IMG/VR virus record: IMGVR_UViG_3300022752_004330 | Location: 1 to 64,000 of that record | Length of the DNA: 64,000 bases | Source: a virus | Direction: 5' to 3' (one strand) | In this document: positions 16,327 to 35,133 of the stretch, piece after piece | Layout of the letters: each line of letters opens with the position of its first letter | How positions within the stretch are numbered: position 1 is the stretch's first letter | Translations under genes and position numbers: made by a program | The notes under the pieces: model-generated | Seen by the model: only the letters and a program-made list of their open reading frames with translations | Databases searched by the model: none | What the model was told of the DNA's origin: nothing

Positions 16327-17820
16327 ATGCCTACAATTAATGTTATCATTACTTCTACTATGGGATTTGTTAAATCTACCAATGCTATAGTAAGTCCCAA
16401 TGTACTAGTTGGTAGTCTATTGAATTTCCAAGGTCAGAGCACTTCAACTATAGGTGAACCTCAAACCAAGGTACTTTCAATTGAATCAGAAACTTCAGGG
16501 TATCCTATTCCTGTTTTTAATTGTTACCCAGGGCAAGATAGCGACAGCCAAAAGATATTATTTAAAAACTCAGGTACCACCAGCTTGGTTGTCACCAGCG
16601 TTTTATTCAGCAGTGAAGGTGCTACACCAAAAATTGAATATGGCCCAGGCTGGGGAGCTGTGGGTACGACAATTTCTCCAGGAACTAACAAATATTTTAA
16701 TCTCAGATATAATGGCGGTGGTTCATTTGGTAATTTTATAAATTTTATCACAGTTAATAGTGATAATGATCAAGGTTCGATTAAAATACCTACAAGACAA
16801 AATATAAGCTATGGATTTAATTGGGTAAGCACTCCTAGCAATTATAATGAGACAATTACAGAGATAGGAAAAAGTATAGAAACTACTTTCTTGATTAATC
16901 CAGATAGTAGGAGCACGGCAAATGGTGACATCATTACACAGCTATCAGCCACGAGTACTCATTCTGGCGGCTGGAAAATTTTAGATACTGGTATATTGAA
17001 TGGTGTAGGCCATGTTAAAGTAAGATTTGATGCTGACTATGTGGCCAACACCAATATCTATAGTCAAAGCCTTGTGGTCACAGTAAATGGTATCACCAAG
17101 AATATAACAAATTATGCAACTGTTATAGTTAGTACTGGTTCATACAGGCATTTTATAGATTGGCTTAGTCCAATAAGCACACATAATTCTGTGGTCGGAA
17201 TTAGCTACGATTTAGTTGATGCCAAGAGAATTTTAACCATAGGAGTAGGTATGGGCGGTGATGGTACTCCACAGTACGATCAGGGTGGGTCTCTTTTATT
17301 AGATATGAAAAATTTAGGTATAGGTGCTGCTTCGCAAGATGCACCTTTTGCTCATTGGGCAGAAGTGTATCAGTTTTATAACCTAGGAACAGGCACAGCA
17401 CGTACCATGGTATCTGGGTTGAAAAACTTAGATGGTGAATATTATTATAAAGTTAAGACCAGTGATTATTATAATTATGGGGATTATTTTGGTAATGGTA
17501 CTGCAAGAGGTTCTATGTTTACTGTGTACGATGACGGCACAGGTAATCTCAGTATTTCATTAAATGGGATACGCGAATATAGCACAGACGCAAATTTTAA
17601 TATGACTCTAGATAATCTCAGCAGATCATTTCACTATTATAGCCAAACTGACACAGGAACAAGATTTAACAATCTTCCGCAATATCCTATAGATTCTTCT
17701 CCTAGCACTGGTACGGTAAAAACTCCAATTACAGAAACTCGTACAAGAATATTTAGAGGGTTCAGCGGCATTGGGAACACATGGACCACAGTTACCAGTA
17801 TTGTTTCAATACCAAATTAA
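16327..17820 (+). CDS. Virion protein with Ig-like domain (497 aa)
   Basis: A beta-rich protein without signal peptide. Residues about 75-155 (ILFKNSGTTSLVVTSVLF...SPGTNKYFNLRYNGGG) form the Ig-like domain shared with the 12626 and 12946 genes. The remainder is Gly/Ser/Thr/Tyr-rich with many short strands, as in fibre tips. It is the last of the left virion block; immediately after it the base composition becomes markedly AT-rich. Confidence 0.6.
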   Translation: MPTINVIITSTMGFVKSTNAIVSPNVLVGSLLNFQGQSTSTIGEPQTKVLSIESETSGYPIPVFNCYPGQDSDSQKILFKNSGTTSLVVTSVLFSSEGATPKIEYGPGWGAVGTTISPGTNKYFNLRYNGGGSFGNFINFITVNSDNDQGSIKIPTRQNISYGFNWVSTPSNYNETITEIGKSIETTFLINPDSRSTANGDIITQLSATSTHSGGWKILDTGILNGVGHVKVRFDADYVANTNIYSQSLVVTVNGITKNITNYATVIVSTGSYRHFIDWLSPISTHNSVVGISYDLVDAKRILTIGVGMGGDGTPQYDQGGSLLLDMKNLGIGAASQDAPFAHWAEVYQFYNLGTGTARTMVSGLKNLDGEYYYKVKTSDYYNYGDYFGNGTARGSMFTVYDDGTGNLSISLNGIREYSTDANFNMTLDNLSRSFHYYSQTDTGTRFNNLPQYPIDSSPSTGTVKTPITETRTRIFRGFSGIGNTWTTVTSIVSIPN

Positions 17821-17853: not shown

Positions 17854-19092
17854 ATGCTAATTAGTGTACCTTTACTTGATTCTGAAATAGTTAGAAATAT
17901 TAGATATGATGGGAATTCCGCATCGTATGACTCTCAGCTCAGATTATCCGGAGATGCTGAGCATGAATTAATGGTGTTTAATCCATGGGTAGATGATTCT
18001 AAACCTTTATATTTTTTATTCACTATAGATAACAACTTTGTTAGTTTTAATCATACGCTTATAGAAGGATACGGAAAAAAATGTATTGTCTGGAATTATA
18101 AGGGACAATGGTTAGCAAAATATTTTCCTAGAGGATGGATTCCTAAGCATAGATACAAAGATTTATCCATTTTACTTCCTAAGGGACAATGGATTAAAAA
18201 TCCAGATCTTAATTTAGAATTAAATTTTAATAATAGCGGGTTTAAAAAATATCAGCCTGATCCTTTTGAATGCCGCTGCGAGCTAATTTGGTATCTGGAT
18301 CCTCGATATTCATCAGGACCTGATAAAATCTGGGCATTCAAATATAAGCCTAAAAGTTCACTAGCCTATGAATCTAGAGATATGGGGTTAGTTAGTCCTG
18401 ACCTGCCAAAACAAAAAGATGTAATTTTTATAAGCTATAACGAATTAAATGCGGAAGAAAATTGGCGCAGGCTTATTGAAAAGTATCCTAAAGCCAAAAG
18501 GGTACATGGAATAGAAGGAATATTTGAAGCTCATAAAGTAGCAGCCATGATCTCATCTACAGAAATGTTTTATGTGGTAGATGGTGATGCATGGATAGTA
18601 GATGAATTCAAGTTTAATTTTCAATTAGACTTATATGATAGAGATTGTACTTATGTCTGGGCAAGTATAAATCCTTTGAATAATCTTATATATGGCTATG
18701 GTGGAGTAAAATTATTTAACAAGTATAATTTGTTAAAAATGAAAAAATGGAACAGTTTAGATCTTACATTAAGCGTGAGCAAAAATTATAAATTTATAGA
18801 AGAAGTAAGTAATATTACCAAATTTAATACAGATAATTTTACAATTTGGAAGAGTGTTTTTAGAGAAACTGTCAAATTGGCCAAAATTAACAAATATGGA
18901 TTAATTGAATCCTGGAACAAAGCTAAAAATAAGACAGCCCGGCATGCTCAAGAGGCCGCTTTACAATTTTTTCAAAAAAATAAAAACTTAAAAAGAGAAC
19001 TATTGAAAATTAACGATGCTGTTTTTTTACAAAAATTTTACGAACAAAATATTGAAGAATTAAAAAATTTCAGTAAGGGTTCTATTTTTTAA
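17854..19092 (+). CDS. Probable glycosyltransferase of phage type (412 aa)
   Basis: The central part (residues about 185-260) reads KQKDVIFISYNELNAEENWRRL...AKRVHGIEGIFEAHKVAA...FYVVDGDAWIVDEF. This is the nucleotide-sugar fold with a DxD-like DGDAW metal motif that I associate with glycosyltransferase-like proteins of large marine phages. The N-terminal 180 residues are beta-rich and unassigned. It opens the AT-rich cluster and converges on the 19060 gene, overlapping it tail-to-tail by 33 nt. Substrate unknown. Confidence 0.6.
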   Translation: MLISVPLLDSEIVRNIRYDGNSASYDSQLRLSGDAEHELMVFNPWVDDSKPLYFLFTIDNNFVSFNHTLIEGYGKKCIVWNYKGQWLAKYFPRGWIPKHRYKDLSILLPKGQWIKNPDLNLELNFNNSGFKKYQPDPFECRCELIWYLDPRYSSGPDKIWAFKYKPKSSLAYESRDMGLVSPDLPKQKDVIFISYNELNAEENWRRLIEKYPKAKRVHGIEGIFEAHKVAAMISSTEMFYVVDGDAWIVDEFKFNFQLDLYDRDCTYVWASINPLNNLIYGYGGVKLFNKYNLLKMKKWNSLDLTLSVSKNYKFIEEVSNITKFNTDNFTIWKSVFRETVKLAKINKYGLIESWNKAKNKTARHAQEAALQFFQKNKNLKRELLKINDAVFLQKFYEQNIEELKNFSKGSIF

Positions 19093-19746
19093 CCAAATAT
19101 CGTAAGTACCAAAATCTAAAAAATTTCGGACCATGGAGGTTTTAAAATATTCACCTTGATAGATCATATATTGAATTATGTGACTTAGATATATTTCTGC
19201 ACCATTGCTGACAAAATTTTCAAAATAGTAACAATACTTTAGAGAAGATTCAAATTTATAACCACCCACACAAAAGTAATCAGAAATAATTTCTTTCTCT
19301 ACTATTTTTTCTACTTGGTTATTTTTATTGGTCCTTAAATAACTATATTCTTTTTCCCTCAGGTTAGAATGTTTTTGTAGTTGTGAAATATATACTAGAT
19401 TTCCTTGTTCATAATTTGAATTAAAAAAATTGTCACAATCCTTGACCAATATTTCATCTTCTATTCTTGACCTCTTTATTATTTCAAAAACAGTCTCTGC
19501 AGGTCCTCGGGTAAGATTAGGTAAAAAGACAATGTTAATATTATCATCTTTCTTTTGTAAAATTTTTGATACATTAAATTTTTCTTCGTGTGCCTGTAGT
19601 ATTCCGACTGTTACCTTGTATTTTTTTAAATAAGGCTGAACTGATCTATATAACATAATATGTCCATTAGAATCTTCCAATAAAAACTTAGGTTCAAGTG
19701 TAGGAAATCTGCTTGACAATCCGGCAGCCGGAACAATTATGTGCAT
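19060..19746 (-). CDS. Sugar nucleotidyltransferase-like protein (228 aa)
   Basis: It begins IIVPAAGLSSRFPTLEPKFLL, the GxxSR...PK signature of NDP-sugar pyrophosphorylases. The metal-site Asp pair appears as LVKDCDNFF near residue 107, and VGGYKFES fits the later product-binding strand. The usual family members are 230-300 aa, so this is a compact but complete domain. It is the only leftward gene inside the cluster. It probably activates a sugar (or similar) phosphate with NTP. Confidence 0.75.
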   Translation of the reverse strand: MHIIVPAAGLSSRFPTLEPKFLLEDSNGHIMLYRSVQPYLKKYKVTVGILQAHEEKFNVSKILQKKDDNINIVFLPNLTRGPAETVFEIIKRSRIEDEILVKDCDNFFNSNYEQGNLVYISQLQKHSNLREKEYSYLRTNKNNQVEKIVEKEIISDYFCVGGYKFESSLKYCYYFENFVSNGAEIYLSHIIQYMIYQGEYFKTSMVRNFLDFGTYDIWLKNRTLTEIF

Positions 19747-19835
19747 GATTAATCCTTAATAATTTATTTAATTATAAATTATTCAGTTTTATAAAACTTT
19801 GAATGAGCTAGACATAATTATTAAAAAAATATACT

Positions 19836-21152
19836 ATGAAATCTTTACAAGAACTTACTAAAAACTCTAGTTTTTGCGTGATTCCATTTATCAGTCTAAT
19901 GGTGAATACCGACACTTATATTAGGTACTGTTGTTTGACCAAAGGACTTGAAGGTAGGATTAAAAACAGTCAAGGAAATTATATCAGTTGTAAGGATAAT
20001 TTTAAAGAACAGGCATGGAATTCAGGGCATCTTAGAGCTATAAGGATTTCCATGCTTAACGATAGTAAAGTAACAGGTTGCCAATCCTGCTATCTGCAAG
20101 AACAAAGCGGCAGACAGAGCAACAGGCAATTGAGTAATAATGAATGGATTAACAGGTTGGGCAGTGACCAAATTATGAAACTTGTTGAACAAGCTGCTAA
20201 ATCGGGTTTTGTTGTTGACGATCCTGTTTACCTTGATTTAAGATTAGGAAACCTATGCAATTTAAAATGCAGAATGTGTAATCCTTGGAACAGTAGTCAA
20301 ATCGCAAAAGAACATGTTGAATTAATAGAAAAAGACCAAGACTATGCAGATACATGGAATAAAAGTTTTAGTAAGTTTTCTATAAAATTTATGGATAACC
20401 AACCATGGTTTCAAAGTGATATTTTTTGGAATCAAGTTATTGAATTAATTCCAAGTTTGCAAAAGGTTTACTTAACAGGAGGTGAGCCTACTTTAATTGA
20501 GCAAAATTTTACCTTCATGCAAAGTTGTATAGATCAAGGTAGAAATGATATTCAATTATTTTTTAATACTAATTGCACTAATATCAATAAAAAGTTTTTA
20601 GAATTAATAAGACAATTTTTTAATTGTTCTGTAAATGCGAGTATAGATGGATTCGGAGAAGTAAACGATTATATTAGGTTTCCGAGTAAATGGGCTAGGT
20701 TAGAAAATAATATAGAACAAATGGCTCGTATGCCTAACATAACATTAGGGATTACTCCTACTGTACAAGTTTATAATATTCTAAATTTAGTAGAAATACT
20801 CAATTGGGTTGACAGGTTAAATGCAAAATATAAAAAGAATATATTTGTAGATTTTTTAATTAATACTCACCCATCTCATTTAGCAATAACAATTTTACCA
20901 GATAATATAAAACAACAAGCTCTGGATATGCTAGAACATTATCGAGATAATGTGATGTCTAAAAATGCACATGGTCTAACGCAAAATAGTTTAAACGGAG
21001 TTATTGGTATGTTGAAGTTAAATCCTCCTGATGATTTAGAGGAACAAGTAAAAAGATTAAGAATTTACACAAAATCATTAGACAAAGAAAGAAAACAAGA
21101 TTTTACTGTGTTAGGACCAGAACTAGCTGAGTTTATAAATGGAAAAGAGTAA
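19836..21152 (+). CDS. Twitch-domain radical SAM protein (438 aa)
   Basis: LRLGNLCNLKCRMCNPW near residue 145 gives CxxxCxxC, the [4Fe-4S]/SAM site, followed by YLTGGEPTLIE (the GGE SAM-binding motif). Ahead of it, residues about 10-110 carry the cysteine-rich twitch/SPASM-like segment (SFCVIPFISLMVNTD, YCCL, CQSCY), an N-terminal arrangement known from phage and marine-bacterial radical SAM proteins. The substrate is unknown; SPASM/twitch enzymes usually modify peptides or sugar-linked substrates. It overlaps the next, paralogous gene by 14 nt. Confidence 0.85.
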   Translation: MKSLQELTKNSSFCVIPFISLMVNTDTYIRYCCLTKGLEGRIKNSQGNYISCKDNFKEQAWNSGHLRAIRISMLNDSKVTGCQSCYLQEQSGRQSNRQLSNNEWINRLGSDQIMKLVEQAAKSGFVVDDPVYLDLRLGNLCNLKCRMCNPWNSSQIAKEHVELIEKDQDYADTWNKSFSKFSIKFMDNQPWFQSDIFWNQVIELIPSLQKVYLTGGEPTLIEQNFTFMQSCIDQGRNDIQLFFNTNCTNINKKFLELIRQFFNCSVNASIDGFGEVNDYIRFPSKWARLENNIEQMARMPNITLGITPTVQVYNILNLVEILNWVDRLNAKYKKNIFVDFLINTHPSHLAITILPDNIKQQALDMLEHYRDNVMSKNAHGLTQNSLNGVIGMLKLNPPDDLEEQVKRLRIYTKSLDKERKQDFTVLGPELAEFINGKE

Positions 21153-22377
21153 AACATTTTGTATACTACCTTGGATTCATGCAGCTACCTATACAGATGG
21201 CAGTGTATTATTATGTTGTGTGGCCAATAGTAGCAATCTTAATTTGAATAAAGTTAATTGGCAAACAGCCTGGAATAGTGATTATTTTAAAAGAGCTAGG
21301 CTTACCATGCTTGAAGGAAATGAATTTCCTGATTGCTCAAATTGTTATAATAATGAAAAAAGCGGGGTAAAAAGCCATAGGCAGATTCAAAATTTCTTAT
21401 GGAGTAAAAAACTCGGCATTGAATACATAGATGATATTGTTTCAAAAACAGAGAGCGACGGAAAGGTTAACAATAATATAATTGCGCTGGATTTGAGATT
21501 AGGTAATACCTGTAACTTGCAATGTGTTATGTGTAGACCTACTGATAGCAGCAAGTGGTTGAAAGATGCGGAAACTTTATCTAATGAATTAACCACAGAA
21601 GCTAAGTGGGATTGGAAATGGAAAATTGAAAACTTTACCATTGAAAACTTTGAATGGTATAAAGATCCTGCTTTCTGGGAAGATTTTTACCTTCGTGCCC
21701 ATGACATAAAACATATTGTCATAGGTGGCGGAGAACCTATGTTATTGAAAGAGCATAAAGAATTATTAGTACAATTAGTTAACAGAGGATTGAGTAAAAA
21801 TATTGAGTTGAGATATCATACTAACGGTACTATATATAGTCAGGAAATAGTAAACCTTTGGACTAAATTTAAATTAGTTGAAGTTATGATTAGTCTGGAC
21901 GGTCATAAAGAAGTTAATGACTATATAAGATATCCTTCAAATTGGGAATTGCTTGAAAAAAATTTAGATTTATATGATCAGACGGAATCTATGATAGACA
22001 TCAAGATTCTGTGTACCGTGCAAGCATTAAATTTATATTATCTACCAGACTTCGCAGATTGGTTGTTATCTAAAAACTACAAAAAAATAGGTAGAACTGC
22101 GCATGATGGGTTATTTCATACTGGGGTTCTGCATTGGCCTAGATATCTCAGTGTAAAGGTTTTACCAAAAAAACTAAAAGATAAGATTACGAAAAAAATA
22201 TTGAATTATTCTTCTAAAAATAAAAATAATAAAACCATACAAAATTTCAATCACCTGATTACATTAATGAATAGTGAAGACCATAGTGTCATGTTTGTTC
22301 AAATGAAGGAATATTTACAAAAACTAGACAATCTTCACGGAACGGATTATAGAAAATTAGGAGATTTTTTCCTATGA
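21139..22377 (+). CDS. Second twitch-domain radical SAM protein (412 aa)
   Basis: A paralogue of the preceding gene with the same order: KTFCILPWIHAATYTDGS and CCVANS, then CSNCYNNEKSG, then LRLGNTCNLQCVMCRPTDSS near residue 120 (CxxxCxxC) and VIGGGEPMLL (GGE). The two proteins have clearly diverged, so they may act in sequence or as a heterodimer. It overlaps the next gene by ATGA, indicating one operon. Both genes are AT-rich like the rest of the cluster. Confidence 0.85.
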   Translation: MEKSKTFCILPWIHAATYTDGSVLLCCVANSSNLNLNKVNWQTAWNSDYFKRARLTMLEGNEFPDCSNCYNNEKSGVKSHRQIQNFLWSKKLGIEYIDDIVSKTESDGKVNNNIIALDLRLGNTCNLQCVMCRPTDSSKWLKDAETLSNELTTEAKWDWKWKIENFTIENFEWYKDPAFWEDFYLRAHDIKHIVIGGGEPMLLKEHKELLVQLVNRGLSKNIELRYHTNGTIYSQEIVNLWTKFKLVEVMISLDGHKEVNDYIRYPSNWELLEKNLDLYDQTESMIDIKILCTVQALNLYYLPDFADWLLSKNYKKIGRTAHDGLFHTGVLHWPRYLSVKVLPKKLKDKITKKILNYSSKNKNNKTIQNFNHLITLMNSEDHSVMFVQMKEYLQKLDNLHGTDYRKLGDFFL

Positions 22378-23399
22378 AGTTTTGGAAACAGGATAAATTT
22401 CTTGTGATTCAAGCAGGAAATACGACTAATGATGTACTAGAATTAAGATACAATTTATTAGATACTGATGTGTGTGACAGATGGATAGGATTAATTAACG
22501 AAAATAATAATAGAAATAATAGCTTAAGGTACAATTATCGTAAAATTTTAAGTGATTCAGAAATTGACCAAAGATTTCAAAATTTCAAAGATAATATTAA
22601 TTTTATAAATCGTAACTATGATAGAAAATTGAAAGACATTGTTAGTTTAGAATATTTAAAAAACAATCAAGATATATTAAATGATTTGCATGAGGAATAC
22701 GAGATTTATGGAGACAGATTAGAAGAACTGGTTAATATTGGATATTTTAATAATCCGAAAAATTTTCCTAAATATTATCATCCAGTATGGCCTGGTTCAA
22801 AAAATTCTAACGATAAAGAAGTACATGAAGCATTTTTGCTATTAAATGAACAGATACATAATTTCGAAGCAATTTACAGAAATTATACTAGAAGAGATCA
22901 AACTTTATGTACATGTCTTTGGGATTTTATGCCTGCAGGATTGCATGAAGATCTAAAGCCTGAAGATTATTTTTTATTCACTCCAAATCATCTGTGGGGG
23001 TGGGCTTATCTTGGATATAATACTTTAGGAAAGCACTGGGCCAGTAGTTGTAATGACAACGATGTTGAAGTTGTTCGCAGGAAGCAAGTTAGGCCACAGA
23101 CTAGATTTGCTGCGGAAACCTATATGAATTTTAGTTTGCGTGAACCTGAACATGGCATGCAGGTAAATTTATACAATTGGTGGTTAAAAAATGATTTTAG
23201 CAAAATTATGAATCCTGCAGAAATGAAACTTAGTGATATTGCATTAGGATTTATCCCCATTGGTAAAATTATAGGATATAGAATAAATCATGAAGATTTT
23301 CAGATGATTAACCAAGATACAAACAAAGGACTATGGAATAAACATATCTGGAGTAGATTCAATACGATAGAATCTGTTATAATTAAAAATCATGTATAA
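22374..23399 (+). CDS. Unrecognised cluster protein (341 aa)
   Basis: No family recognised. The protein is soluble, rich in Asn/Tyr/Trp, with a central stretch CTCLWDFMPAGLHEDLKPEDYFLFTPNHLWGWAYLGYNTLGKHW that could hold catalytic His/Asp residues, and a C-terminal half with conserved-looking Arg and Trp. Its stop overlaps the start of the hydroxylase-like gene by 8 nt and its start overlaps the second radical SAM gene. It is therefore probably a partner or substrate-handling protein for them. Confidence 0.6.
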   Translation: MKFWKQDKFLVIQAGNTTNDVLELRYNLLDTDVCDRWIGLINENNNRNNSLRYNYRKILSDSEIDQRFQNFKDNINFINRNYDRKLKDIVSLEYLKNNQDILNDLHEEYEIYGDRLEELVNIGYFNNPKNFPKYYHPVWPGSKNSNDKEVHEAFLLLNEQIHNFEAIYRNYTRRDQTLCTCLWDFMPAGLHEDLKPEDYFLFTPNHLWGWAYLGYNTLGKHWASSCNDNDVEVVRRKQVRPQTRFAAETYMNFSLREPEHGMQVNLYNWWLKNDFSKIMNPAEMKLSDIALGFIPIGKIIGYRINHEDFQMINQDTNKGLWNKHIWSRFNTIESVIIKNHV

Positions 23400-24054
23400 T
23401 TTTCCTAATGAACTTATTGACTTTTATAATTTGCATCACTTAGGTAAAAATCCTACTTACAACAAGTTAGTAGATGCTCAGAAAGATTTATCTTGTAGCT
23501 ATTATGAAATTAAATTTCATTTCGATCCGCAGCTACTTTTACAAGAATGCAAAAGTGTGGATCAATTATTTTTTAATCATAGATCACAAGATAAAAAGAA
23601 AGGGTATGGTCATCGAGGGTGGCAAAGTTTAACCTTACATGGCTTAGATAAGCATAAAACCGAACATTATACCAGGTACGGATTCACTTCTTTAGAAGAC
23701 GCAAGTTATAAGTGGACGGATGCTAGCGATTTGGTTCCAAACTTGACAAAATTTTTACAATCTTTACCCTATAAAATCTTTGATAGAGTAAGAATAATGA
23801 AATTAGCAGCCGGTGGCTATATCATGCCTCATTCTGATGGTCCTAATAGAATATTCAGTCCATTAAATATAGCTATAAATAATCCACCTGGTTGTGAATT
23901 TGTATTTCACACAAATGGAGTGGTTCCTTTTAAAGGTGGATCAGGTATGATTCTTGATGTTGCTAGGGAGCATATGGTAATCAACCGAAGTGACGAATCT
24001 AGATATCATATAATTGTTCACGGTTTTTATAGTCCGAATTTTTTGAATTATTAA
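23392..24054 (+). CDS. Aspartyl/asparaginyl beta-hydroxylase-like dioxygenase (220 aa)
   Basis: Residues about 135-215 show the 2-oxoglutarate/Fe(II) signature of the Asp/Asn beta-hydroxylase family: MKLAAGGYIMPHSDGPNR (His-x-Asp ligands), INNPPGCEFVFH, GSGMILDVAREHMVINRSDESRYHIIVHG (distal His and the Arg that binds 2-oxoglutarate). The N-terminal 90 residues are extra. It would hydroxylate a protein side chain or small molecule. Sits between an unknown protein and a large unknown in the same operon. Confidence 0.75.
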   Translation: MYNFPNELIDFYNLHHLGKNPTYNKLVDAQKDLSCSYYEIKFHFDPQLLLQECKSVDQLFFNHRSQDKKKGYGHRGWQSLTLHGLDKHKTEHYTRYGFTSLEDASYKWTDASDLVPNLTKFLQSLPYKIFDRVRIMKLAAGGYIMPHSDGPNRIFSPLNIAINNPPGCEFVFHTNGVVPFKGGSGMILDVAREHMVINRSDESRYHIIVHGFYSPNFLNY

Positions 24055-24055
24055 A

Positions 24056-25456
24056 ATGTCTTTTACTAAAATAAAAATTTCTAAAAATACATTGTTAGAA
24101 AGAAAATTTCATTATGCTATTGTTGATCAGAATTGTATCAAGGAAAAGCATGAAGAATTATATAACAAAATGAAACAGACTTCTTTTAGTTTTACTAAAA
24201 AAATGAGTGCTAACAGTCTAAAAGGTGACATAAAGTTTTACAATAATATTGATGATTGTCTAAGTGAATGTTTAAATGATTATGGTATAGTTTTAATTCA
24301 AAGTATTGGCAATTTTATTCGGATTAATAGTTTTTTTGAATACCTGAACACTTATGTTGAAAATAACCCCGATTTTTTTATTTTATCATTTACTTTAGAT
24401 TGGGAATCAGAGCACGGACAGGGATGGATAGAAATACATAACCAAATGATGGTAGTGAATATTGATAAATGGAAAGAACTTGGCTGTCCAAAGTTTGGAG
24501 GTTGGGAAAATTCGGTAGAACCTTTACCTAACTATGAAAGATCAGTTGAAAATTTTCACGACAAATATACTCCGCATTGGATAAAAGGAATTGACGGAGA
24601 GACTACTAAGTTGAGAAAATATCCCGGATGGGGATTTCTCAAAGCCGCCTTACAAAATAAAGTTAAAATAGATAATTTCACTGAAGAAATGAGAAATTGT
24701 AGATTGTACACCTATCCAGAACATGAATCTAATAATTTCTATGATGCTATAATATCTTTAGATAGTACCAAAATTAATAATCCTAATCAGAAAAAATTTA
24801 TTAATTCTTGGCTTAAACCTAAACCTGAAATTTGGATTTTTAATAGTGAAGATTACAAGTTCAATGTTCCGTTTATTTCAATTGATCACTATTATGGCCC
24901 TGCAGCAGGTTTTAAATATTTAGATGTTTTTAATTCCACAGAGAACCCTAAGTTTATTTTTTATGATATAAACAAAGATTCCTTAGATTGGATAAAAAAC
25001 TTAAAAGAAAATTGGGATGGAAAAAATCTGTTCCAGTATTTAAAAAGCAAACCTTTAGAACTTAAAAAGTTATATAAATTTATTAATAAAGATATCGAAA
25101 CTAATATAAATTTATTAATGGAGACTTATAGAGATGAGGATAATTTTTTAACATATTGGAATAAGTTCAGGCAAAGCGAAGCTGAATTCCTTCATATCAA
25201 TCTACTTGATGTAGATAATTTTTTAGCTACCATAGAACAATTCAAATCAAAAAGACCCTTTTTTTATTATAGTAATATTTTTTCAACAGATTTTTTATCT
25301 TGTCGATATAGCATAGAAGAGGTTACATCTATCTATAACAATTTTTTTGAAAAATTTAATAAAATTTATCCACAGTCGTTTTGCTTAGGGTCTGAAATTT
25401 TTGGTGAATGGGAATATCGTAGAAATGGAAAAAAATTTACACTAAAAATGGAGTAA
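24056..25456 (+). CDS. Large unrecognised cluster protein, possibly two-domain (466 aa)
   Basis: Starts 1 nt after the hydroxylase stop. Residues about 75-150 (GIVLIQSIGNFIRINSFFEYL...FFILSFTLDWESEHG...HNQMMVVNI) resemble the nucleotide-sugar half of some phage glycosyltransferases. Residues about 275-440 (FKYLDVFNST...FIFYDINKDSLDWI...HINLLDV...FYYSNIFST) look like a Rossmann methyltransferase without a clear SAM glycine loop. Both assignments are weak. Strongly AT-rich codon use. Confidence 0.5.
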   Translation: MSFTKIKISKNTLLERKFHYAIVDQNCIKEKHEELYNKMKQTSFSFTKKMSANSLKGDIKFYNNIDDCLSECLNDYGIVLIQSIGNFIRINSFFEYLNTYVENNPDFFILSFTLDWESEHGQGWIEIHNQMMVVNIDKWKELGCPKFGGWENSVEPLPNYERSVENFHDKYTPHWIKGIDGETTKLRKYPGWGFLKAALQNKVKIDNFTEEMRNCRLYTYPEHESNNFYDAIISLDSTKINNPNQKKFINSWLKPKPEIWIFNSEDYKFNVPFISIDHYYGPAAGFKYLDVFNSTENPKFIFYDINKDSLDWIKNLKENWDGKNLFQYLKSKPLELKKLYKFINKDIETNINLLMETYRDEDNFLTYWNKFRQSEAEFLHINLLDVDNFLATIEQFKSKRPFFYYSNIFSTDFLSCRYSIEEVTSIYNNFFEKFNKIYPQSFCLGSEIFGEWEYRRNGKKFTLKME

Positions 25457-25458
25457 TC

Positions 25459-26238
25459 ATGTATAATAATATTGCGGTGTTTATAAGAGGACATAAAAGA
25501 ATTTGGGATTATTTAAAACTTATGACCTTTGAAAATTTTGAAAAAATTTCTAGAAACGTAGATTATTATGTTGCAGTTTGGAATGATGGGAGTGTTGATA
25601 TAACAAAGTTAAAAAAAGACTTTGATAATAAAAATTTAGTAGAATTTTTGGAAGGTAATATATTTGAACATTTTGGTACGCCATATCTATCACCGACTTG
25701 GTTAAATTATAACCTTTTGCCTTCTAAAAAAATCAGAGAAAAAACAGTGAAATATGATGTAATCTTTGATCACAGGTTTGATTTGTTAGTATTTCCAAAC
25801 GATAATTGCTCAATTCCAATAGAATCTAATACTATCTATTCTCCATTCGTTGTAAGAGATTATATAAACTATGATCCTCAATCAGCTCATTTAAAAGATT
25901 ATGGATGGTGTTGTGATAGTTTGACTTTTGATAAATTTTGTGAAAGATTTGCAGAAGGTAACGATACTGATTTATCGGCAGAGGCACAATGTAGTAAATT
26001 TGCTAATAAACTCAATATTAGACTAAGACACTATATTTTTTACAATATTTTATTAGCTAGACCTGATATAGGAAAAATTACGGAAATTAACACTCCCATT
26101 ATTTTTAATCCTTGGGTGAAAGAATATTATGATAAACAACCAGAATGGGATAAAATTACAAAAGATGAAAAAATTAAAATATGCGAAAATTATCAGATAA
26201 ATCTTGAAGATTATATAGAAAATATATTGACAAAATGA
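25459..26238 (+). CDS. Glycan-cluster protein, paralogue 1 of a pair (259 aa)
   Basis: Starts NIAVFIRGHKRIWDYLKLMTFENFEKISRNVDYYVAVWND, matching the next gene in the same positions. Both continue with ...LLPSKKIREKTVKYDVIFDHRFDLL, where DHRFD resembles an acidic nucleotide-sugar or metal site. The pattern (IRGxxRxW...VDYYxxxW...YDxxFDxRFD) suggests an uncharacterised glycosyltransferase-type fold. It overlaps the following gene by ATGA. Confidence 0.6.
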   Translation: MYNNIAVFIRGHKRIWDYLKLMTFENFEKISRNVDYYVAVWNDGSVDITKLKKDFDNKNLVEFLEGNIFEHFGTPYLSPTWLNYNLLPSKKIREKTVKYDVIFDHRFDLLVFPNDNCSIPIESNTIYSPFVVRDYINYDPQSAHLKDYGWCCDSLTFDKFCERFAEGNDTDLSAEAQCSKFANKLNIRLRHYIFYNILLARPDIGKITEINTPIIFNPWVKEYYDKQPEWDKITKDEKIKICENYQINLEDYIENILTK

Positions 26239-27149
26239 AATACAAACATATTGGTGTTTTTTTAAGGGGGCAGTTACGTACTTGGAACTTTTGCAAAACT
26301 AATATTTTTGCTGTATATGAGTCTATAGCAGAAAATGTAGATTATTATTTTTCTACTTGGGATGTTTCTTATGTTGACAAATCTACATTATTAAATGATT
26401 TTTTAGGAAAAAGTTTAATTGGTCATGAATTTTTAACACAACCCGAAAAATTTGATAGTGACCCTTCATTCTACGCTCCTGCCATGCAAACTTATAGCTT
26501 GTTGCCTGCCAAATGGAAAAGAGAAAAGGAAGTTACTTATGACGCCTGCTTTGATCAAAGGTTTGATGTTATAAATTGGATAGTTTATGATCCTTATCTG
26601 CCTGAACCTATGGAAATATATACACCTCAGCCGCCGTTTAAACACAAGGTACCGATTTTTAGTAGAAATGAAAATGATTTTAAGGTTGATAATTTTGTTG
26701 ATGCGGAAGGATTGGCCGATATAGGATTTATGAGTGATTCGAGAACCTTTGATATCATATCTTGTAGATTTTTAAGAAAATCTGAAGATAAATCTCCAGA
26801 ACTTAAACTAAGAGATTTTTGCCTAGATGCTGGAATAGAAATGCCTGGTATGATGCCGTTCGGACATTGTATAATTAGGCCTCACATCACCGATTTATTT
26901 TTAGATCCTGTTACTATTTTAACAAATGAACAAATAGATAAAATAATTAACAATATTTTTGAATGGCAAAATAAAACCATTGAGGATAAAATTAAAGACT
27001 GCCTTAAAAACAATATAAATTTGAATGAATTCCTTTTTAACATAAAACACTTTGGTTTAGATGCAAATAACTCTTTTGAAGAAATAAAAAATTTATACGA
27101 TAAACATAACATAGGAAATATAACATTTCATGATAAAACAAGTGAATAA
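26235..27149 (+). CDS. Glycan-cluster protein, paralogue 2 of a pair (304 aa)
   Basis: The N-terminus HIGVFLRGQLRTWNFCKTNIFAVYESIAENVDYYFSTWD and the text LLPAKWKREKEVTYDACFDQRFDVI line up with the preceding gene. This copy has a longer C-terminal tail. Tandem duplication with divergence suggests two acceptor or donor specificities. It overlaps the cupin gene by 20 nt. Confidence 0.6.
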   Translation: MKYKHIGVFLRGQLRTWNFCKTNIFAVYESIAENVDYYFSTWDVSYVDKSTLLNDFLGKSLIGHEFLTQPEKFDSDPSFYAPAMQTYSLLPAKWKREKEVTYDACFDQRFDVINWIVYDPYLPEPMEIYTPQPPFKHKVPIFSRNENDFKVDNFVDAEGLADIGFMSDSRTFDIISCRFLRKSEDKSPELKLRDFCLDAGIEMPGMMPFGHCIIRPHITDLFLDPVTILTNEQIDKIINNIFEWQNKTIEDKIKDCLKNNINLNEFLFNIKHFGLDANNSFEEIKNLYDKHNIGNITFHDKTSE

Positions 27150-27567
27150 ACATTGGGGTAAGGAGTCATGGATTCAAGATGGACAAAGCACTCCGTATGC
27201 TTTTAAACGAATTATGTTTTTGGCAGGACATAGAACAAGTCTTCAAGTACATAGAAAAAAGATAGAAACAAATTATGTATTAAAAGGTAAAGGAACATTA
27301 CTTTTAAGCAAGGTTCAATTAGATATTGATAAGTTCTTAATCATCGGCATGTCTGAACAAGAAATAAAAGATTTTGAATCTCAATGTGAAAATATTACGC
27401 TAGAACAAGATATGAATTTTACAATTTATCCAGGTTACGTTCATCGTGTCACGGCAATTACAGATTTAGAATTCTTTGAAGTAAGTTCTCCTGAATTAGA
27501 TGATGTATATAGGTTACAGGACGATCATGGAAGAACTCATGGAAGAATACAATCAGAACATAAATGA
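27130..27567 (+). CDS. Cupin of the mannose-6-phosphate-isomerase type II family (145 aa)
   Basis: The stretch KHWGKESWIQDG...FLAGHRTSLQVHRKKIETNYVLKGKGTLLLSK contains the cupin metal ligands (H-R-x-x-x-x-x-x-H...E) and the GxGxL turn. A second cupin motif, FTIYPGYVHRVTAITDLEFFEVSSPEL, follows near residue 100. This resembles the C-terminal isomerase domain of ManC-type enzymes standing alone. It would isomerise or bind a sugar phosphate for the adjacent nucleotidyltransferase. It overlaps the next gene. Confidence 0.75.
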   Translation: MIKQVNKHWGKESWIQDGQSTPYAFKRIMFLAGHRTSLQVHRKKIETNYVLKGKGTLLLSKVQLDIDKFLIIGMSEQEIKDFESQCENITLEQDMNFTIYPGYVHRVTAITDLEFFEVSSPELDDVYRLQDDHGRTHGRIQSEHK

Positions 27568-29083
27568 CCCTCTAGTAGTCATACCTACAGCAGGATTAGG
27601 ATCTAGATTAGGATATCTTACTCATAGTTTTAACAAATCCTTATTACCTTTTCAAAATAAACCAATTTTATCACATATAATTGAAAATTTTCCGAAAAAT
27701 TCAAGTTTCTTAATTATTTTAGGATTTCAGGCCGAACAGGTAAAAGATTTCTGTAAACTAGCTTACCCTGAACTCCATTTTACTTTTATAATCGTAGATG
27801 ACTATGAATCCAACAAGGCTGGCCCCGGATATTCATTATTATATGCTCGACAATACATAAACAGAAGCTTTTGGTATGTGCCATGCGATACAATTTTTAA
27901 ACACAAATTTAAATCATATGAGCCTAATGAAGATACTTTTTTTGTCGCAGTTAATGATAACCATATAGATTATACTACCTTTGAGATAATAGATAGTAGA
28001 ATTACAAGTATTAAATTTAAAGAAAATTCTCCAGAAAATTATCTAGTGTTCACTGGTTTATCTTTTATAAAAAACTATAAAGAATTTTTGAATAATATAC
28101 ATGAAGCCGGTGGTTTAGAAATGATATCAGGTATTTCCATTGGTAGTAAGGCAGATACCTTAGATTCATGGTCTGATATGGGAAATATAAATTTATATAA
28201 AAAATTACAAACGGGTTTTGATTTTTCTAAGACTGAAGAGTATACTTATCGAGTTGGAAATAAAGTATTAAAATGGAACAAAGATAAAAATATTACTTTG
28301 AAAAAATACAAACGCTGGAGGTTTAACTCGTCTATAGTGCCTAAAAATTGTCTTCATTTTAATAATTGGTTAACTTATGATTATTTTCCAGGTAATGTGC
28401 TTTATGATAAACATGATATTCTTACTCTTGAAAATTTGTTAACATGGCTTAAGGAAAAAGTGTGGATAAAAAAAGAAATAAATCTATATGAGGCCAGTAA
28501 GAATTTTTATTTTCAAAAGACTAAACTTAGATTAGAAAGTTTCTTTACAAAATATCCCAATCTGCCAAATATCTCAAAGATTAATAATTTAGATGTTAGG
28601 CCTTATGATTACTATTTTAGTAAGATTGATTGGAATATATTGTTTTCAGAAAATGTTAGCGCCTTTATTCATGGAGACCTGCAATTTGATAATATTATAA
28701 TAGATTCAAATAAGAATTTTTGTATGATAGATTGGCGAACAGATTTTGGAGGAGAAATAGCAGCCGGGGATATACATTACGATCTTGCTAAACTGCTATG
28801 TGGATTTATTATTGACTATACTAGAATAAAAAATAACGATTTTAAAATTAGTTTTGATACTAACCATGTATTCTTAGAAATTCCTAATATTTTGAACAAT
28901 AAAGAGTACACTAATATAGTTGAACGATTTATTCATGATGAAGGATATTGTTTTAAAAAAGTTCAAACACTGGTACCTTTAATATTTTGGAATATGTCTC
29001 CACTACATAGTGCCCCTTTCGATTTATTTTTGTTTTACTTAGGAATAAAATTATTTGCAGAATTAGAGAATGAAGTTTTATAG
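27527..29083 (+). CDS. Nucleotidyltransferase fused to an APH/choline-kinase-like kinase (518 aa)
   Basis: Start chosen at ATG 27527 (MEELMEEYNQN), which follows AGGACGATC; an earlier ATG lies deeper in the cupin gene. Residues about 15-230: VVIPTAGLGSRLGYLTHSFNKSLLPF is the LicC/RmlA-type NTP-binding start and WYVPCDTIF the metal site. Residues about 250-515 are an aminoglycoside-phosphotransferase/choline-kinase fold, with FIHGDLQFDNIII (HGD catalytic loop) and FCMIDWRTDFGG (DxD-like metal loop). The fusion suggests one protein that phosphorylates a small alcohol or sugar and then activates it with CTP or another NTP. Confidence 0.8.
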   Translation: MEELMEEYNQNINDPLVVIPTAGLGSRLGYLTHSFNKSLLPFQNKPILSHIIENFPKNSSFLIILGFQAEQVKDFCKLAYPELHFTFIIVDDYESNKAGPGYSLLYARQYINRSFWYVPCDTIFKHKFKSYEPNEDTFFVAVNDNHIDYTTFEIIDSRITSIKFKENSPENYLVFTGLSFIKNYKEFLNNIHEAGGLEMISGISIGSKADTLDSWSDMGNINLYKKLQTGFDFSKTEEYTYRVGNKVLKWNKDKNITLKKYKRWRFNSSIVPKNCLHFNNWLTYDYFPGNVLYDKHDILTLENLLTWLKEKVWIKKEINLYEASKNFYFQKTKLRLESFFTKYPNLPNISKINNLDVRPYDYYFSKIDWNILFSENVSAFIHGDLQFDNIIIDSNKNFCMIDWRTDFGGEIAAGDIHYDLAKLLCGFIIDYTRIKNNDFKISFDTNHVFLEIPNILNNKEYTNIVERFIHDEGYCFKKVQTLVPLIFWNMSPLHSAPFDLFLFYLGIKLFAELENEVL

Positions 29084-29801
29084 TTTAAGCCAATATCCGG
29101 GAACTACCGGAAAGAAGTTCTACGAACATTTTTTTAAAAAATATGGTTTGAGTAATTCTTACACACCACTTGCTTGTAATTTAGAACAATTTGAATTCCA
29201 ATTTAGACATCTTATAGAAGATGAAGCAGATGGAATTAGTGTGAGTATGCCTTTTAAAAATATTGTATTAAAGAATTTAACCGAGTTGGATATAAGCTGT
29301 AAAGATTACTTATCTTGTAACACTGTCATTGTTAAAAATAATAGGCGGACAGGTTATAATACTGATATTCAAGGTATTTACTATGTAGCATCCTTTATAC
29401 AGAAAATGGACAGAATTTCTATTCTAGGGCAGGGTGCTCTTGGAAAGATGTTTACTAAATTCTTTAAAACAAATCATTATCATAGAACAAAGGTTTATAG
29501 TCGTCATGAAGGAAATTTTAATGATAGGCACACCCCTACAGATATTTTAATTAATTGTACAGGAATAGGAACAGTAAATACTGATAGTCCAGTTGAGTTT
29601 ATACCAAAAAATACAAGACTAATTGTTGATCTTAGCCTTACAGAAAATAAACTTTTTCAACAGTGTTTAGATACAGAAGTTCAATATATAAAAGGGCTAG
29701 ATTTCTATTTAAGGGTATTTCAAAAACAATTTAGTTTATATGCAGGTATTGAACTTTCAATAAATGAAATAGAAGAAGATATTTCCTTAATTTTATTATG
29801 A
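29070..29801 (+). CDS. Shikimate/quinate dehydrogenase (AroE)-like enzyme (243 aa)
   Basis: The AroE hallmarks are present: SVSMPFKNIVLKNL near residue 62 (catalytic Lys in PxK), SCNTVIVKNNRRTGYNTDIQGI near residue 92 (NTDxxG substrate loop) and ISILGQGALGKMF (Rossmann nucleotide loop, somewhat unusual). It is at the short end of the family (usually 270-290 aa). It overlaps both neighbours (by 14 and 4 nt). In a sugar cluster it may reduce a shikimate-like or cyclitol intermediate and not serve aromatic amino-acid synthesis. Confidence 0.8.
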   Translation: MKFYSLSQYPGTTGKKFYEHFFKKYGLSNSYTPLACNLEQFEFQFRHLIEDEADGISVSMPFKNIVLKNLTELDISCKDYLSCNTVIVKNNRRTGYNTDIQGIYYVASFIQKMDRISILGQGALGKMFTKFFKTNHYHRTKVYSRHEGNFNDRHTPTDILINCTGIGTVNTDSPVEFIPKNTRLIVDLSLTENKLFQQCLDTEVQYIKGLDFYLRVFQKQFSLYAGIELSINEIEEDISLILL

Positions 29802-30280
29802 TAAAAAAATTAGTTTTTGATATAGATGGAGTATTCACCAATGGTAGCATACTATATAATGCACATGGTAAATCTTATAAAATTTTCGGACCTCATGATA
29901 AAGATGGAATAAAAATTATAAGGAAATATATTAACGATATAAACTTTATAACGGCAGATACTTCAGGATGGGACATCACCTATGCAAGATTTGTTAAAGA
30001 TTGGAAAATTGATCCCAAAGATTTAATACTTGTTCCAGAAGAAAGTAGATTAGATTGGTTTTTAGATAATTGTGAGATGGAACAAACTGCATTTATGGGA
30101 GATGGATATTACGATGCTCCTATTCTTTCAAGGGTGAAAATAGGTATTTGCCCCGGCTCAGGAAGAATTGAAGCTCAACAGTCTGCTGACTATGTTACTC
30201 AAAGTCCAGGTGGAAATGGTGCTGTGTTGGATGCATGTTTATATTTAGAAAAGATTATGATCAAAAATGCTATTATCTAA
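29798..30280 (+). CDS. KdsC-like HAD phosphatase (160 aa)
   Basis: FDIDGVFTNGSI (DxD catalytic loop), GPHDKDGIKII (the F-x-x-x-D-G-x-G-I-K loop), ADTSGWD (Thr/Ser motif II) and AFMGDGYYDAPIL (GD...D motif IV) give the capless KdsC type, of usual length. KdsC removes phosphate from KDO-8-phosphate; relatives act on nulosonate 9-phosphates. The ATG overlaps the AroE-like stop (ATGA). It probably dephosphorylates the product of the GatZ-like enzyme next door. Confidence 0.8.
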   Translation: MIKKLVFDIDGVFTNGSILYNAHGKSYKIFGPHDKDGIKIIRKYINDINFITADTSGWDITYARFVKDWKIDPKDLILVPEESRLDWFLDNCEMEQTAFMGDGYYDAPILSRVKIGICPGSGRIEAQQSADYVTQSPGGNGAVLDACLYLEKIMIKNAII

Positions 30281-31289
30281 ATTTAAAATTGGGGTAGGTC
30301 CTATGAGCTCTGAAATAATTAATCTTATTTTAGAATATGCTCATATTACCGAAACGCCGATAATGATAATTGCTAGTAGGAATCAGGTTGATCATGACCT
30401 AGGATATGTAAGTAATACAAGGAACTTAGTAGCTAAAATTAAAAGTAGTATTTACTATGACTCTTCTAAAATATTAATTTGTAGAGATCATTGTGGTCCA
30501 TATTTTAGAGATGATGAAAAATCTAAAAATATTACTCAAGCTACTGCCAATTGTCTGGCTACCATTGAAAATGATATCGAGAATGGATTCGATATTTTAC
30601 ATATTGATGTAGGAAAAGTAAACAAAGACCCTTATAAAATTGCCGACAGCCTTATTTCCAGAGCACTGCATTTAAATCCTGAAATTATATTAGAATTTGG
30701 TAGTGAAGACAACACCATGGAAAATTTAGATGATTTGACACATCTAAATAATAATATAAATTATGTAAAACAATTTAAAAATGTAAAGTTTTTAGTGAAT
30801 AAGACCGGGAGTTTAACGAAACATACACAGGTAGGTAATTTTATTCTAAATAGAAATAGATCTATAGCCGATAAAATTCATGCCGAGGGGCTATTGTTTA
30901 AAGAGCATAATGCAGATTATCTAAATAAGGAACAACTTTTGTTACGGAAATTGTGTGGAATTGATGCTATCAATATAGCTCCTGAGCTTGCCTGTGCCCA
31001 AACAAAATGTCTTTTACAATTTGCACCATACTTTCCTGCATCATTTTTTGAATTCAAGAATTTCGTTTTAAAAAGCGAATTATGGAAAAAATGGACAGAT
31101 TATGATAATAAAGAGTTACAATTTGTAGTTAGTGCCCATTATTTTTATAACCATAAACTAGGTATTGATATTAGAATGACCTTAAACAAAATAGCTGAAT
31201 TTAAATCTTTATTAAGAAAAGAAGTTTTTTCTATTTTAGACAAATATAGTCATTACCTATTAAAAGATGAATATGATTCCTGTAAATAA
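30267..31289 (+). CDS. GatZ/KbaZ-like TIM-barrel aldolase-type protein (340 aa)
   Basis: PIMIIASRNQVDHDLGY near residue 32, ILICRDHCGPYFRDD near residue 70 and ATANCLATIENDIENGFDILHIDVGK near residue 95 fit the GatZ/KbaZ (D-tagatose-bisphosphate aldolase Z subunit) family pattern: NQV, GDHxGP and (I/L)HxD. A later EFGSEDN corresponds to the IGTEVP loop. It stands next to a KdsC-like phosphatase. The likely role is condensation or cleavage of a phosphorylated sugar. In GatZ itself the Z subunit is said to be structural, so catalysis is not assured. Confidence 0.65.
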   Translation: MLLSKFKIGVGPMSSEIINLILEYAHITETPIMIIASRNQVDHDLGYVSNTRNLVAKIKSSIYYDSSKILICRDHCGPYFRDDEKSKNITQATANCLATIENDIENGFDILHIDVGKVNKDPYKIADSLISRALHLNPEIILEFGSEDNTMENLDDLTHLNNNINYVKQFKNVKFLVNKTGSLTKHTQVGNFILNRNRSIADKIHAEGLLFKEHNADYLNKEQLLLRKLCGIDAINIAPELACAQTKCLLQFAPYFPASFFEFKNFVLKSELWKKWTDYDNKELQFVVSAHYFYNHKLGIDIRMTLNKIAEFKSLLRKEVFSILDKYSHYLLKDEYDSCK

Positions 31290-31818
31290 AGATGCTTTTA
31301 GTAGTGGACAAATATCTAGCAAACTATGGCTGTGTGAAGAACTAGAGAGAACTCGTTGGACCAGTAACGAAACAGCCATCTACGGTGGATGGTATGGTCT
31401 CACAGCATTTCTGTTACTAACTAGAAATAAATTTAAAGTTCATAAAATACGCAGTTATGATATTGACTCTAATTGTGAACCTATGGCAGACATGATAAAT
31501 GAAAATTGGGTTTGGCAGGATTGGAAGTTTAAGGCAATAACAGAAGATTGTAATATTCTTAAATCTACAGCTGATATAATCATCAATACTAGCACTGAGC
31601 ATTTTCATAGTAAACAATGGTTTGACAACATAAATTATGGTACAAGAGTTGTTCTTCAAGGCAATAATATGAAACACGAAGATCATGTTATACATTTTGA
31701 AAATCTGCAAGAATTTCTGCAAGAATTTCCTTTGACAAAAATTAATTATAGCGGACAATTAGATTTTGAATATCCTACTTGGAAATTTACAAGATTTATG
31801 TTAATCGGTATAAAATAA
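31267..31818 (+). CDS. Putative methyltransferase-fold protein (183 aa)
   Basis: NETAIYGGWYGLTAFLLLTR (a G-x-x-x-G loop at residue 38), IRSYDIDSNCEPMAD (acidic end of strand 2) and TADIIINTSTEHF fit a Rossmann SAM-dependent methyltransferase, though the glycine motif is degenerate. It closes the AT-rich cluster and overlaps the GatZ-like gene by 23 nt. It may O- or N-methylate the sugar product. Confidence 0.55.
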   Translation: MNMIPVNKDAFSSGQISSKLWLCEELERTRWTSNETAIYGGWYGLTAFLLLTRNKFKVHKIRSYDIDSNCEPMADMINENWVWQDWKFKAITEDCNILKSTADIIINTSTEHFHSKQWFDNINYGTRVVLQGNNMKHEDHVIHFENLQEFLQEFPLTKINYSGQLDFEYPTWKFTRFMLIGIK

Positions 31819-33085: not shown

Positions 33086-33426
33086 CCGTCCCAATCTCTT
33101 GTTTTTTCAATGAAAATTTCTAAAATTTCTTTATGATCTAAGTTTTGGAATTCTTTGCTTACTGTGTAAATTTTGTCTATGTCCATGGGTTCCATACCTT
33201 TTAATCCAATAAGTTCAATTATTTCTTGAAAACTTATTTCTTCATTTCTCATGCTGCTTACCCAAATACAAGTTACTAAACAGGCCATAAGCACAATTTT
33301 ATTATTATAGACTCCCTGTATTTCACACCATTCTACAGTGCGTTTGAGATAGTAATCTATATCTTCTAATCTATTTTCTAAGTTCTTGATCCAGTCTTGA
33401 GTGTCTGTTCTTAACCAAGGCTTCAT
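33070..33426 (-). CDS. Hypothetical protein in the isc operon (118 aa)
   Basis: It starts with an ATG overlapping the iscA stop (ATGA), so it is co-translated with iscU and iscA. Helical, with a hydrophobic stretch [18 protein letters not shown] (residues about 43-60) and charged ends. It is not HscB, HscA, Fdx or IscX by sequence. Its coupling suggests either an Fe-S accessory or simple hitch-hiking. Confidence 0.65.
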
Positions 33427-33749
33427 ACGCTAAAACTTTCTCCACATCCACATTTGGCCTTTTCGTTAGGATTTTTAAATTCAAACCCTTCGTTTAATCC
33501 TTGCTTGACCCAGTCCATTTCTAAACCGGTTAGATAAACCGCACTCTTACCATCCACATAAACTTTTACCCCGTGGTTATCATAGACAAATTGATCTCGG
33601 GTAATAGGCGGAGTATCAACATATTCTAGCACATAGGCTAGCCCACTACATCCTGTGGTCTTTACTCCTACCCTAATGCCTAGGCCTTTACCTCTGCGGG
33701 CAAGATTATGCTTTACTTTTTCTGCTGCTCTTTCAGTTAACGAGATCAT
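33423..33749 (-). CDS. iscA: Fe-S cluster carrier IscA (108 aa)
   Basis: Full-length A-type carrier: [37 protein letters not shown] and, at the end, [12 protein letters not shown], giving the three conserved Cys (CSG and CGCG). These receive clusters from IscU and hand them to target proteins. The text is close to proteobacterial IscA, not to cyanobacterial proteins. The ATG lies 17 nt inside the 3' end of iscU. Operon order is HNH, iscU, iscA, orf. Confidence 0.92.
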
Positions 33750-34809: not shown

Positions 34810-35133
34810 ATGATTGATATCACAACGTCCGCACAAAATAAGATACAAGAGTTACTTTTGGAAGAAAACAATCCTAATATAAAACTACGCACCTTTGTTC
34901 AAGGAGGTGGATGTTCTGGCTTTCAGTACGGGTTTACTTTTGATGAAGACCAAGCAGATGACGATTTTGAAATTCCAGTAGGCCAATTCAAAATTCTTGT
35001 AGATGCAATGAGTTTACAATATCTGCAAGGAGCAGAAATTGACTATGCAGACGATTTATCTGGTGCTAGTTTCAAAATTAAAAACCCAAATGCTGCTTCT
35101 TCATGCGGATGCGGAAATTCCTTTTCCATTTGA
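34810..35133 (+). CDS. erpA: ErpA-like A-type Fe-S carrier (107 aa)
   Basis: The sequence [29 protein letters not shown] and the end [14 protein letters not shown] carry the three Cys of A-type carriers and match the ErpA subgroup ([13 protein letters not shown]...DSMS-x-QYL-x-GAEIDY) better than IscA. ErpA delivers clusters to essential [4Fe-4S] enzymes. It is transcribed away from the isc operon. The ribosome site is weak (CAGGTAAATACAAGC). Highly proteobacterial in sequence, so probably captured from the host lineage. Confidence 0.88.

Follow-up and report, generated by a model that had tools for sequence, protein, structure and literature searches.

Five adjoining genes, encoding a small cupin, a nucleotidyltransferase (NTase)-kinase fusion, an AroE-like dehydrogenase, a KdsC-like phosphatase and a GatZ-like protein, recur in conserved order in viral relatives of a phage gene cluster, and they probably form a nucleotide-sugar (NDP-sugar) pathway that feeds glycosyltransferases of the phage, whatever the acceptor may be. 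The cluster was analysed within a window of 64,000 nucleotides (positions 1 to 64,000 of the 113,689-bp IMG/VR record IMGVR_UViG_3300022752_004330). Tentatively, we read it from its sequence as a phage glycosylation island, in which the five-gene cassette would make a nucleotide-activated rare sugar destined for a virion protein of the tail-fibre kind.

Fifteen long ORFs tile positions 17854-31818 (13,965 bases), all but one of them (a leftward NTase at 19060-19746) on the + strand (Table 1), with a GC content of 0.297 against 0.385 in the rest of the record, and the lowest-GC windows of 13,965 bp in the whole record are those at this position. This agrees with the first-pass annotation, which had described an AT-rich, mostly overlapping block of about 15 genes. 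Its further claim of a single operon holds for 19836-31818, where 13 co-directional ORFs follow one another at spacings of -68 to +2 bases, and fails for gt17, which is cut off from that operon by the convergent nt19. The -68 overlap arises from an ORF start at 27500 that is probably over-long, because the starts of relatives lie further downstream. No T4 late-promoter octamer (TATAAATA) was found just upstream of the cluster, and promoter and terminator scans gave no excess over shuffles. The enzyme families named at first pass (two radical SAM proteins, a hydroxylase, a cupin and AroE-, KdsC- and GatZ-like enzymes) were all matched, the cupin weakly; where three nucleotide-sugar enzyme types had been counted, two NTase domains were found, with nt19 homologous to the N-terminus of the ntk27 fusion (hhalign 94%). 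Among the ORFs that had been left as unknowns, gt17, gt25 and gt26 are GT-A glycosyltransferase-like, and the conserved five-gene core had been missed.

Table 1. ORFs of the cluster, with window coordinates, strand and the evidence for each assignment.
Gene	Product or family	Coordinates	Strand	Evidence or remark
gt17	Glycosyltransferase-like	17854..19092	+	GT-A fold core residues 185-405, DxD D243/D245; AF2, Foldseek
nt19	Nucleotidyltransferase, phrog_3980	19060..19746	-	Related to the ntk27 NTase domain and cyanophage sugar pyrophosphorylases
rs20	Twitch-domain radical SAM	19836..21152	+	CX3CX2C; NF033640 359.9 bits, cut-off 170
rs21	Twitch-domain radical SAM	21139..22377	+	CX3CX2C; NF033640 370.7 bits, cut-off 170
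u22	Without known family	22374..23399	+	L040 has u22, hyd23 and u24 in the same order
hyd23	Aspartyl/asparaginyl beta-hydroxylase family	23392..24054	+	PF05118 44.6 bits, cut-off 22.6
u24	Without known family	24056..25456	+	Relation to gt17 not detectable
gt25	gt26 paralogue	25459..26238	+	Same family as gt26
gt26	Glycosyltransferase-like, GT-A fold	26235..27149	+	AF2 and Foldseek
cup27	Core 1: small cupin, mannose-6-phosphate-isomerase-like, proposed isomerase	27130..27567	+	Weak Pfam matches, gene order
ntk27	Core 2: NTP transferase and APH-type kinase fusion	27500..29083	+	Start probably downstream of 27500
aro29	Core 3: AroE-like NAD(P) dehydrogenase	29070..29801	+	K63, D99 retained
had29	Core 4: KdsC-like HAD phosphatase	29798..30280	+	D8, D10 invariant
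gat30	Core 5: GatZ/KbaZ-like	30267..31289	+	D74, H75, E147, H214
mt31	Class-I methyltransferase-like, by inspection only	31267..31818	+	Without family match

Scanning viral contigs with the GatZ-like protein gave 72 loci, the ORFs of which were clustered. Fifty-two of the viral loci extend 4.5 kb or more upstream of GatZ; in 50 of these the order cupin, NTase-kinase, AroE-like, (KdsC-like), GatZ-like was kept, with the KdsC-like gene present in 24 and missing from 26, that is, from about half of the phage loci. The two exceptions, L002 and L059, are both distant, and the AroE-like and KdsC-like genes are absent next to the cassette in each; L002 is a reverse-strand reading of AG-345-E15, a single-cell marine virus. 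When near-copies were removed, the core order was found in 32 of 32 viral loci, a non-redundant count that leaves out L002 and L059. In the viral loci most adjacent core genes overlap, the extent ranging from a few bases to some tens. The core was accompanied in the 52 loci by gt17-type glycosyltransferases (41 loci), gt26-type glycosyltransferases (48) and radical SAM genes (45), while u22, hyd23 and u24 lay together, in order, just upstream of the cupin in one other locus only (L040), and nt19 and mt31 were sporadic. A carbamoyltransferase was present in 64 loci and closely follows GatZ in most relatives; none was found in the 113,689-bp record. Unlinked genes in relatives had been named at first pass as part of what would refute the idea; linkage was found for the five core genes and not for all 15, and the kept gene order therefore supports the pathway idea for the core only.

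The family assignments and active sites of the core enzymes were then compared with curated models. gat30 scored 47.3 bits against PF08013 (curated Pfam cut-off 26.7) and 38.8 bits against the GatZ equivalog TIGR02810, below its cut-off of 568.8. E. coli GatZ and KbaZ have been shown to be fructose-6-phosphate C4 epimerases, with Asp87, His88, Glu171 and His257 of GatZ proposed from modelling as base and metal ligands (PMC11907403). Motif positions, together with a Listeria homologue used as a bridge, place D74, H75, E147 and H214 of gat30 at these four residues, and in the GatZ-like alignment D74, H75 and H214 are invariant and E147 is found in at least 90%. The ntk27 fusion carries the kinase motifs HGDLQFDN and IDWR and a complete NTase signature, GxGxR, all of them conserved; the structures nearest to its NTase domain are RmlA, LicC and HddC, with a weak resemblance to IspD/TarI-like enzymes. 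aro29 is a superfamily member only, at 68.5 bits against AroE TIGR00507 (cut-off 200.2), and the catalytic Lys (K63) and Asp (D99) are invariant in 22 phage sequences. The AroE-like profile matched 5-ketofructose reductase (7cok) and HI0607, the first of which shows members of the superfamily to be capable of acting on keto-sugars (for such activity see PMC7954740). had29 scored 60.6 bits against KdsC phosphatase TIGR01670 (cut-off 106.95), with its DxD conserved. The cupin matches of cup27 fall under Pfam cut-offs and make this the weakest assignment of the core.

When bacterial and archaeal genomes were scanned, the core families were seen together in about 34 cellular loci, in Patescibacteria, Woesearchaeota and other DPANN, Omnitrophota, Planctomycetota, Pelagibacteraceae and other Pseudomonadota. 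Among their neighbours are Wzx-type flippases (PF01943), glycosyltransferases and SAM methyltransferases, as in polysaccharide-type loci. An AroE-like gene was present in 10 of the 34 and an SDR gene in 8, never in the same locus (a chance of about 0.04 by hand calculation, for loci that are not independent), which suggests one replaceable reduction step. In the GatZ-like tree, gat30 sits on a long branch (0.83) within a 41-row phage-only group (support 98/95), with two other viral rows outside it, and because of this supported clade the cassette appears to be a long-standing resident of phages, not a recent acquisition by this one. The conservation of gene order and catalytic residues over so deep a phage-only clade weighs against the block being cargo or stuffer DNA with no function under selection, a reading that we consider highly improbable even though the AT-rich composition differs from the rest of the record and the same possibility has been raised for cyanophage LPS clusters (PMC3037559). 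No direct DNA matches of the cluster were found in deposited phages. The ntk27 fusion found a full-length match in AG-345-E15 and a match covering a third of it in one Chryseobacterium phage, and gat30 matched AG-345-E15 only, plus Listeria and Salmonella records that are probably bacterial DNA; AG-345-E15 is thus the only clear relative among deposited phages. The Listeria 'phage' records were rejected as cassette carriers, being unannotated, unverified assemblies with the GatZ-like gene alone.

In the scheme that follows we infer each reaction, the order of the steps, the sugar, the nucleotide and the acceptor. The GatZ-like enzyme would epimerise a ketose phosphate, or condense it via aldol chemistry, and the cupin would interconvert ketose phosphate and aldose phosphate. 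Next, the fusion would phosphorylate C1 with its kinase half, the KdsC-like phosphatase would take off the distal phosphate and the NTase half would produce the NDP-sugar, with the AroE-like enzyme reducing a keto group on the sugar, as might be expected of a relative of 5-ketofructose reductase. Transfer of the sugar would fall to gt17, gt25 and gt26 as cytosolic GT-A enzymes, and the sugar may be altered by the radical SAM proteins, the hydroxylase and further tailoring enzymes; the acceptor would most likely be a phage structural protein, a tail fibre in the first place, modified in the cytoplasm as with bacterial flagellin. The first-pass proposal that an unusual decoration is made and transferred has good support where the core is concerned, from its order in 50 of 52 loci, its active sites and its polysaccharide-type cellular loci. 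A different chemistry, modelled on teichoic acid precursors, would begin with a GatZ-like aldolase or epimerase and the phosphatase; the AroE-like enzyme would then reduce a ketose to the polyol from which the kinase and NTase yield a CDP-polyol. This competes over chemistry and not over acceptor, and it draws on the resemblance of the NTase domain to LicC and, weakly, to IspD/TarI-like enzymes and on the AroE-like or SDR genes in 18 of 34 cellular loci; however, the cupin, found in nearly all loci, has no part to play in it, and the AroE-like gene is absent beside the cassette in L002 and L059, and we regard it as rather improbable.

The gt17 family comprises 154 ORFs in 63 loci. An AF2 model of the gt17 core (residues 185-405, with the N-terminal 180 residues outside the model) matched SunS, RmlT and TarP in Foldseek searches, and the folds nearest to the gt26 model were GT6, COLGALT1 and the LH3 glycosyltransferase domain, with TM-scores against solved structures that were low for both proteins (about 0.2-0.5). 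Going by these models, gt17, gt25 and gt26 are GT-A glycosyltransferase-like, and gt25 and gt26 are one family. u24 and mt31 showed no relation to the gt17 profile. The GXY repeats in two tail-fibre ORFs, the hydroxylase and the LH3/COLGALT-like fold of gt26 together raised the idea of a collagen-type modification, which was put aside as a lead only, the gt26 fold matches being weak and GXY repeats being common in tail fibres.

Judged by its genes, the phage of the record is T4-related and of T4 type. A 970-aa virion protein encoded downstream shares 41-42% identity with cyanomyoviruses such as S-RSM4 and 53% with its counterpart in a 453-kb record that also bears the cassette, and on either side of the cluster, no more than 10 kb away, there are tail spike and tail-fibre genes. 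As no gp23 was found in the 113,689-bp record (it was present in 11 of the 27 relatives searched), the record may be partial or the phage may use a divergent capsid protein. p16 (16327-17820), tried as a candidate acceptor, is Ser/Thr-rich (22%) like other structural ORFs, had no relatives that could be found and was rejected.

A simple hydropathy scan predicted no membrane segment among the 15 ORF products, and of 75 viral loci 2 had a polytopic ORF in their flanks (the Listeria record, which is likely bacterial DNA, being one), compared with 23 among the 34 cellular loci, so the cluster is, as first noted, unlike a standard LPS or capsule order. The flippase, polymerase or transporter genes of O-antigen or capsule assembly were not found in it. 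With no membrane proteins, the phage versions of the cassette look soluble and cytoplasmic, and such a system would be suited to glycosylating phage proteins in the cytoplasm where they are made, with tail-fibre genes adjoining. A virion acceptor has in its support the tail spike and tail-fibre neighbours, the near absence of membrane proteins and the precedent of Che8, for which virion glycosylation by phage glycosyltransferases has been reported (PMC11256854). Against the explanation as a whole stand the weak cupin, the often missing KdsC-like gene, the low TM-scores and the lack of a late-promoter octamer where modifiers of structural proteins might carry one, and the absence of a flippase would equally suit sugars put on host lipid-linked intermediates. 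The same NDP-sugar pathway might then let the phage glycosyltransferases alter the host O-antigen or envelope glycan on a lipid carrier and exclude rival phages. This reading, which we treat as a reasonable possibility but not as our expectation, is favoured by published accounts of marine-phage glycosyltransferase islands (PMC7029224, PMC5332604), by the cellular cassette copies in polysaccharide loci and by the octamer missing at the cluster start, whereas the 15 ORFs include no flippase, polymerase, ligase or predicted membrane protein, and almost none occur near the other phage copies. On balance, a virion acceptor is slightly preferred to the host envelope. T4-type phages also glucosylate their DNA, and the cluster has glycosyltransferases and an Fe(II) hydroxylase family member; a sugar on a hypermodified base of the phage DNA nevertheless seems very doubtful, since no member of the thymidylate synthase/dCMP hydroxymethylase family was found in the (possibly partial) record and the cellular copies adjoin polysaccharide genes.

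Phage glycan islands are usually catalogued as a series of single auxiliary genes whose use is unclear, and a fixed five-enzyme order, held in a deep phage-only lineage and common to ultra-small bacteria and archaea, amounts to a testable biosynthetic unit. One sugar nucleotide made in vitro would allow a test of self- versus host-decoration by lytic marine phages. Taken at its fullest, the proposal is of a new NDP-sugar route, with GatZ-type epimerisation and heptose-like activation by other families, in T4-type phages, Patescibacteria, DPANN and Pelagibacteraceae, by which phage tail fibres would be glycosylated with a sugar that the host need not make; we think it unlikely in this full form and, if true, it would add one more NDP-sugar pathway to the known set. 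No description of the five-enzyme cassette was found in the literature searched (open-licence papers).

Glycan islands with radical SAM genes are known in T4-like marine phages, and the cluster, which has tail-fibre genes around it and belongs to a T4-related genome, can be placed with them. The host recognition cluster of pelagimyophages (PMC7029224) is likewise, in the accessible text of its description, a hypervariable T4-like marine phage island with tail fibres, glycosyltransferases and radical SAM genes, but that text names rfaE and UDP-glucose dehydrogenase and does not describe the five-enzyme core. The cyanophage LPS clusters of P-SSM2, S-SSM7 and S-SM2 resemble it in the co-occurrence of glycan genes in T4-like phages, and cyanophages have the carbamoyltransferase too, as do most relatives of the cassette (PMC3037559); they differ in that the core NTase/kinase and GatZ-like proteins have no match in deposited cyanophages. 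E. coli GatZ/KbaZ C4 epimerases (PMC11907403) share with gat30 the Pfam family, the Asp and the Zn ligands, but gat30 is shorter, falls far under the equivalog cut-off and is linked to activation genes, not to galactitol use. The ADP/GDP-heptose pathway (GmhA, HldE or HddA, GmhB, HddC) follows the same isomerase-kinase-phosphatase-NTase logic, whereas the kinase, phosphatase and isomerase of the cassette are of other families, the GatZ-like and AroE-like steps are extra, and homology is confined to the NTase domain, a distant relative of HddC. Flagellin glycosylation islands make and transfer an unusual sugar by soluble cytoplasmic enzymes, and the phage cassette would share this soluble cytoplasmic scheme, a comparison drawn on logic and not on homology.

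The T4 late-promoter octamer TATAAATA was found to be rarer than expected across the whole window (4 seen versus 10.9 expected), with one copy lying about 300 bases upstream of the gene for the 970-aa cyanomyovirus-like virion protein. The beta-propeller fusion ORF listed below has a relative in locus L023, where it lies close to the cassette.

Features of the window outside the sugar and small-molecule gene cluster
Feature	Position	Strand	Pfam
Phosphoribosyltransferase-like N-terminus and PQQ-type beta-propeller, single ORF	14027-15664		
A-type Fe-S carrier	33423-33749	-	PF01521
A-type Fe-S carrier	33733-34020	-	PF01521
IscU/NifU-like scaffold	34810-35133	+	PF01592
Tail-fibre-like, collagen-like GXY repeats	37974-38294	+	
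Tail-fibre-like, collagen-like GXY repeats	58783-59016	-	

In a Lactobacillaceae genome (L127:8444-14680), a GatZ-like gene of a different branch is accompanied by genes for a HAD hydrolase, a transaldolase-family protein and a transketolase, and these neighbours suggest a role for the gene group in ketose-phosphate metabolism. In larger phages (L006, L015, L072 and similar loci), very long ORFs (~1,000-2,000 aa) belonging to the family of gt17, the GT-A glycosyltransferase-like ORF of the cluster, lie downstream of the carbamoyltransferase gene.

The Fe-S carrier and scaffold ORFs, the scaffold matching its Pfam family at 7e-37, are located 1.6-3.3 kb past the end of the cluster; the distance to the two radical SAM genes of the cluster is ~11-15 kb. 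T4-like environmental viruses that carry Fe-S assembly genes together with radical SAM genes have been described (PMC5332604).
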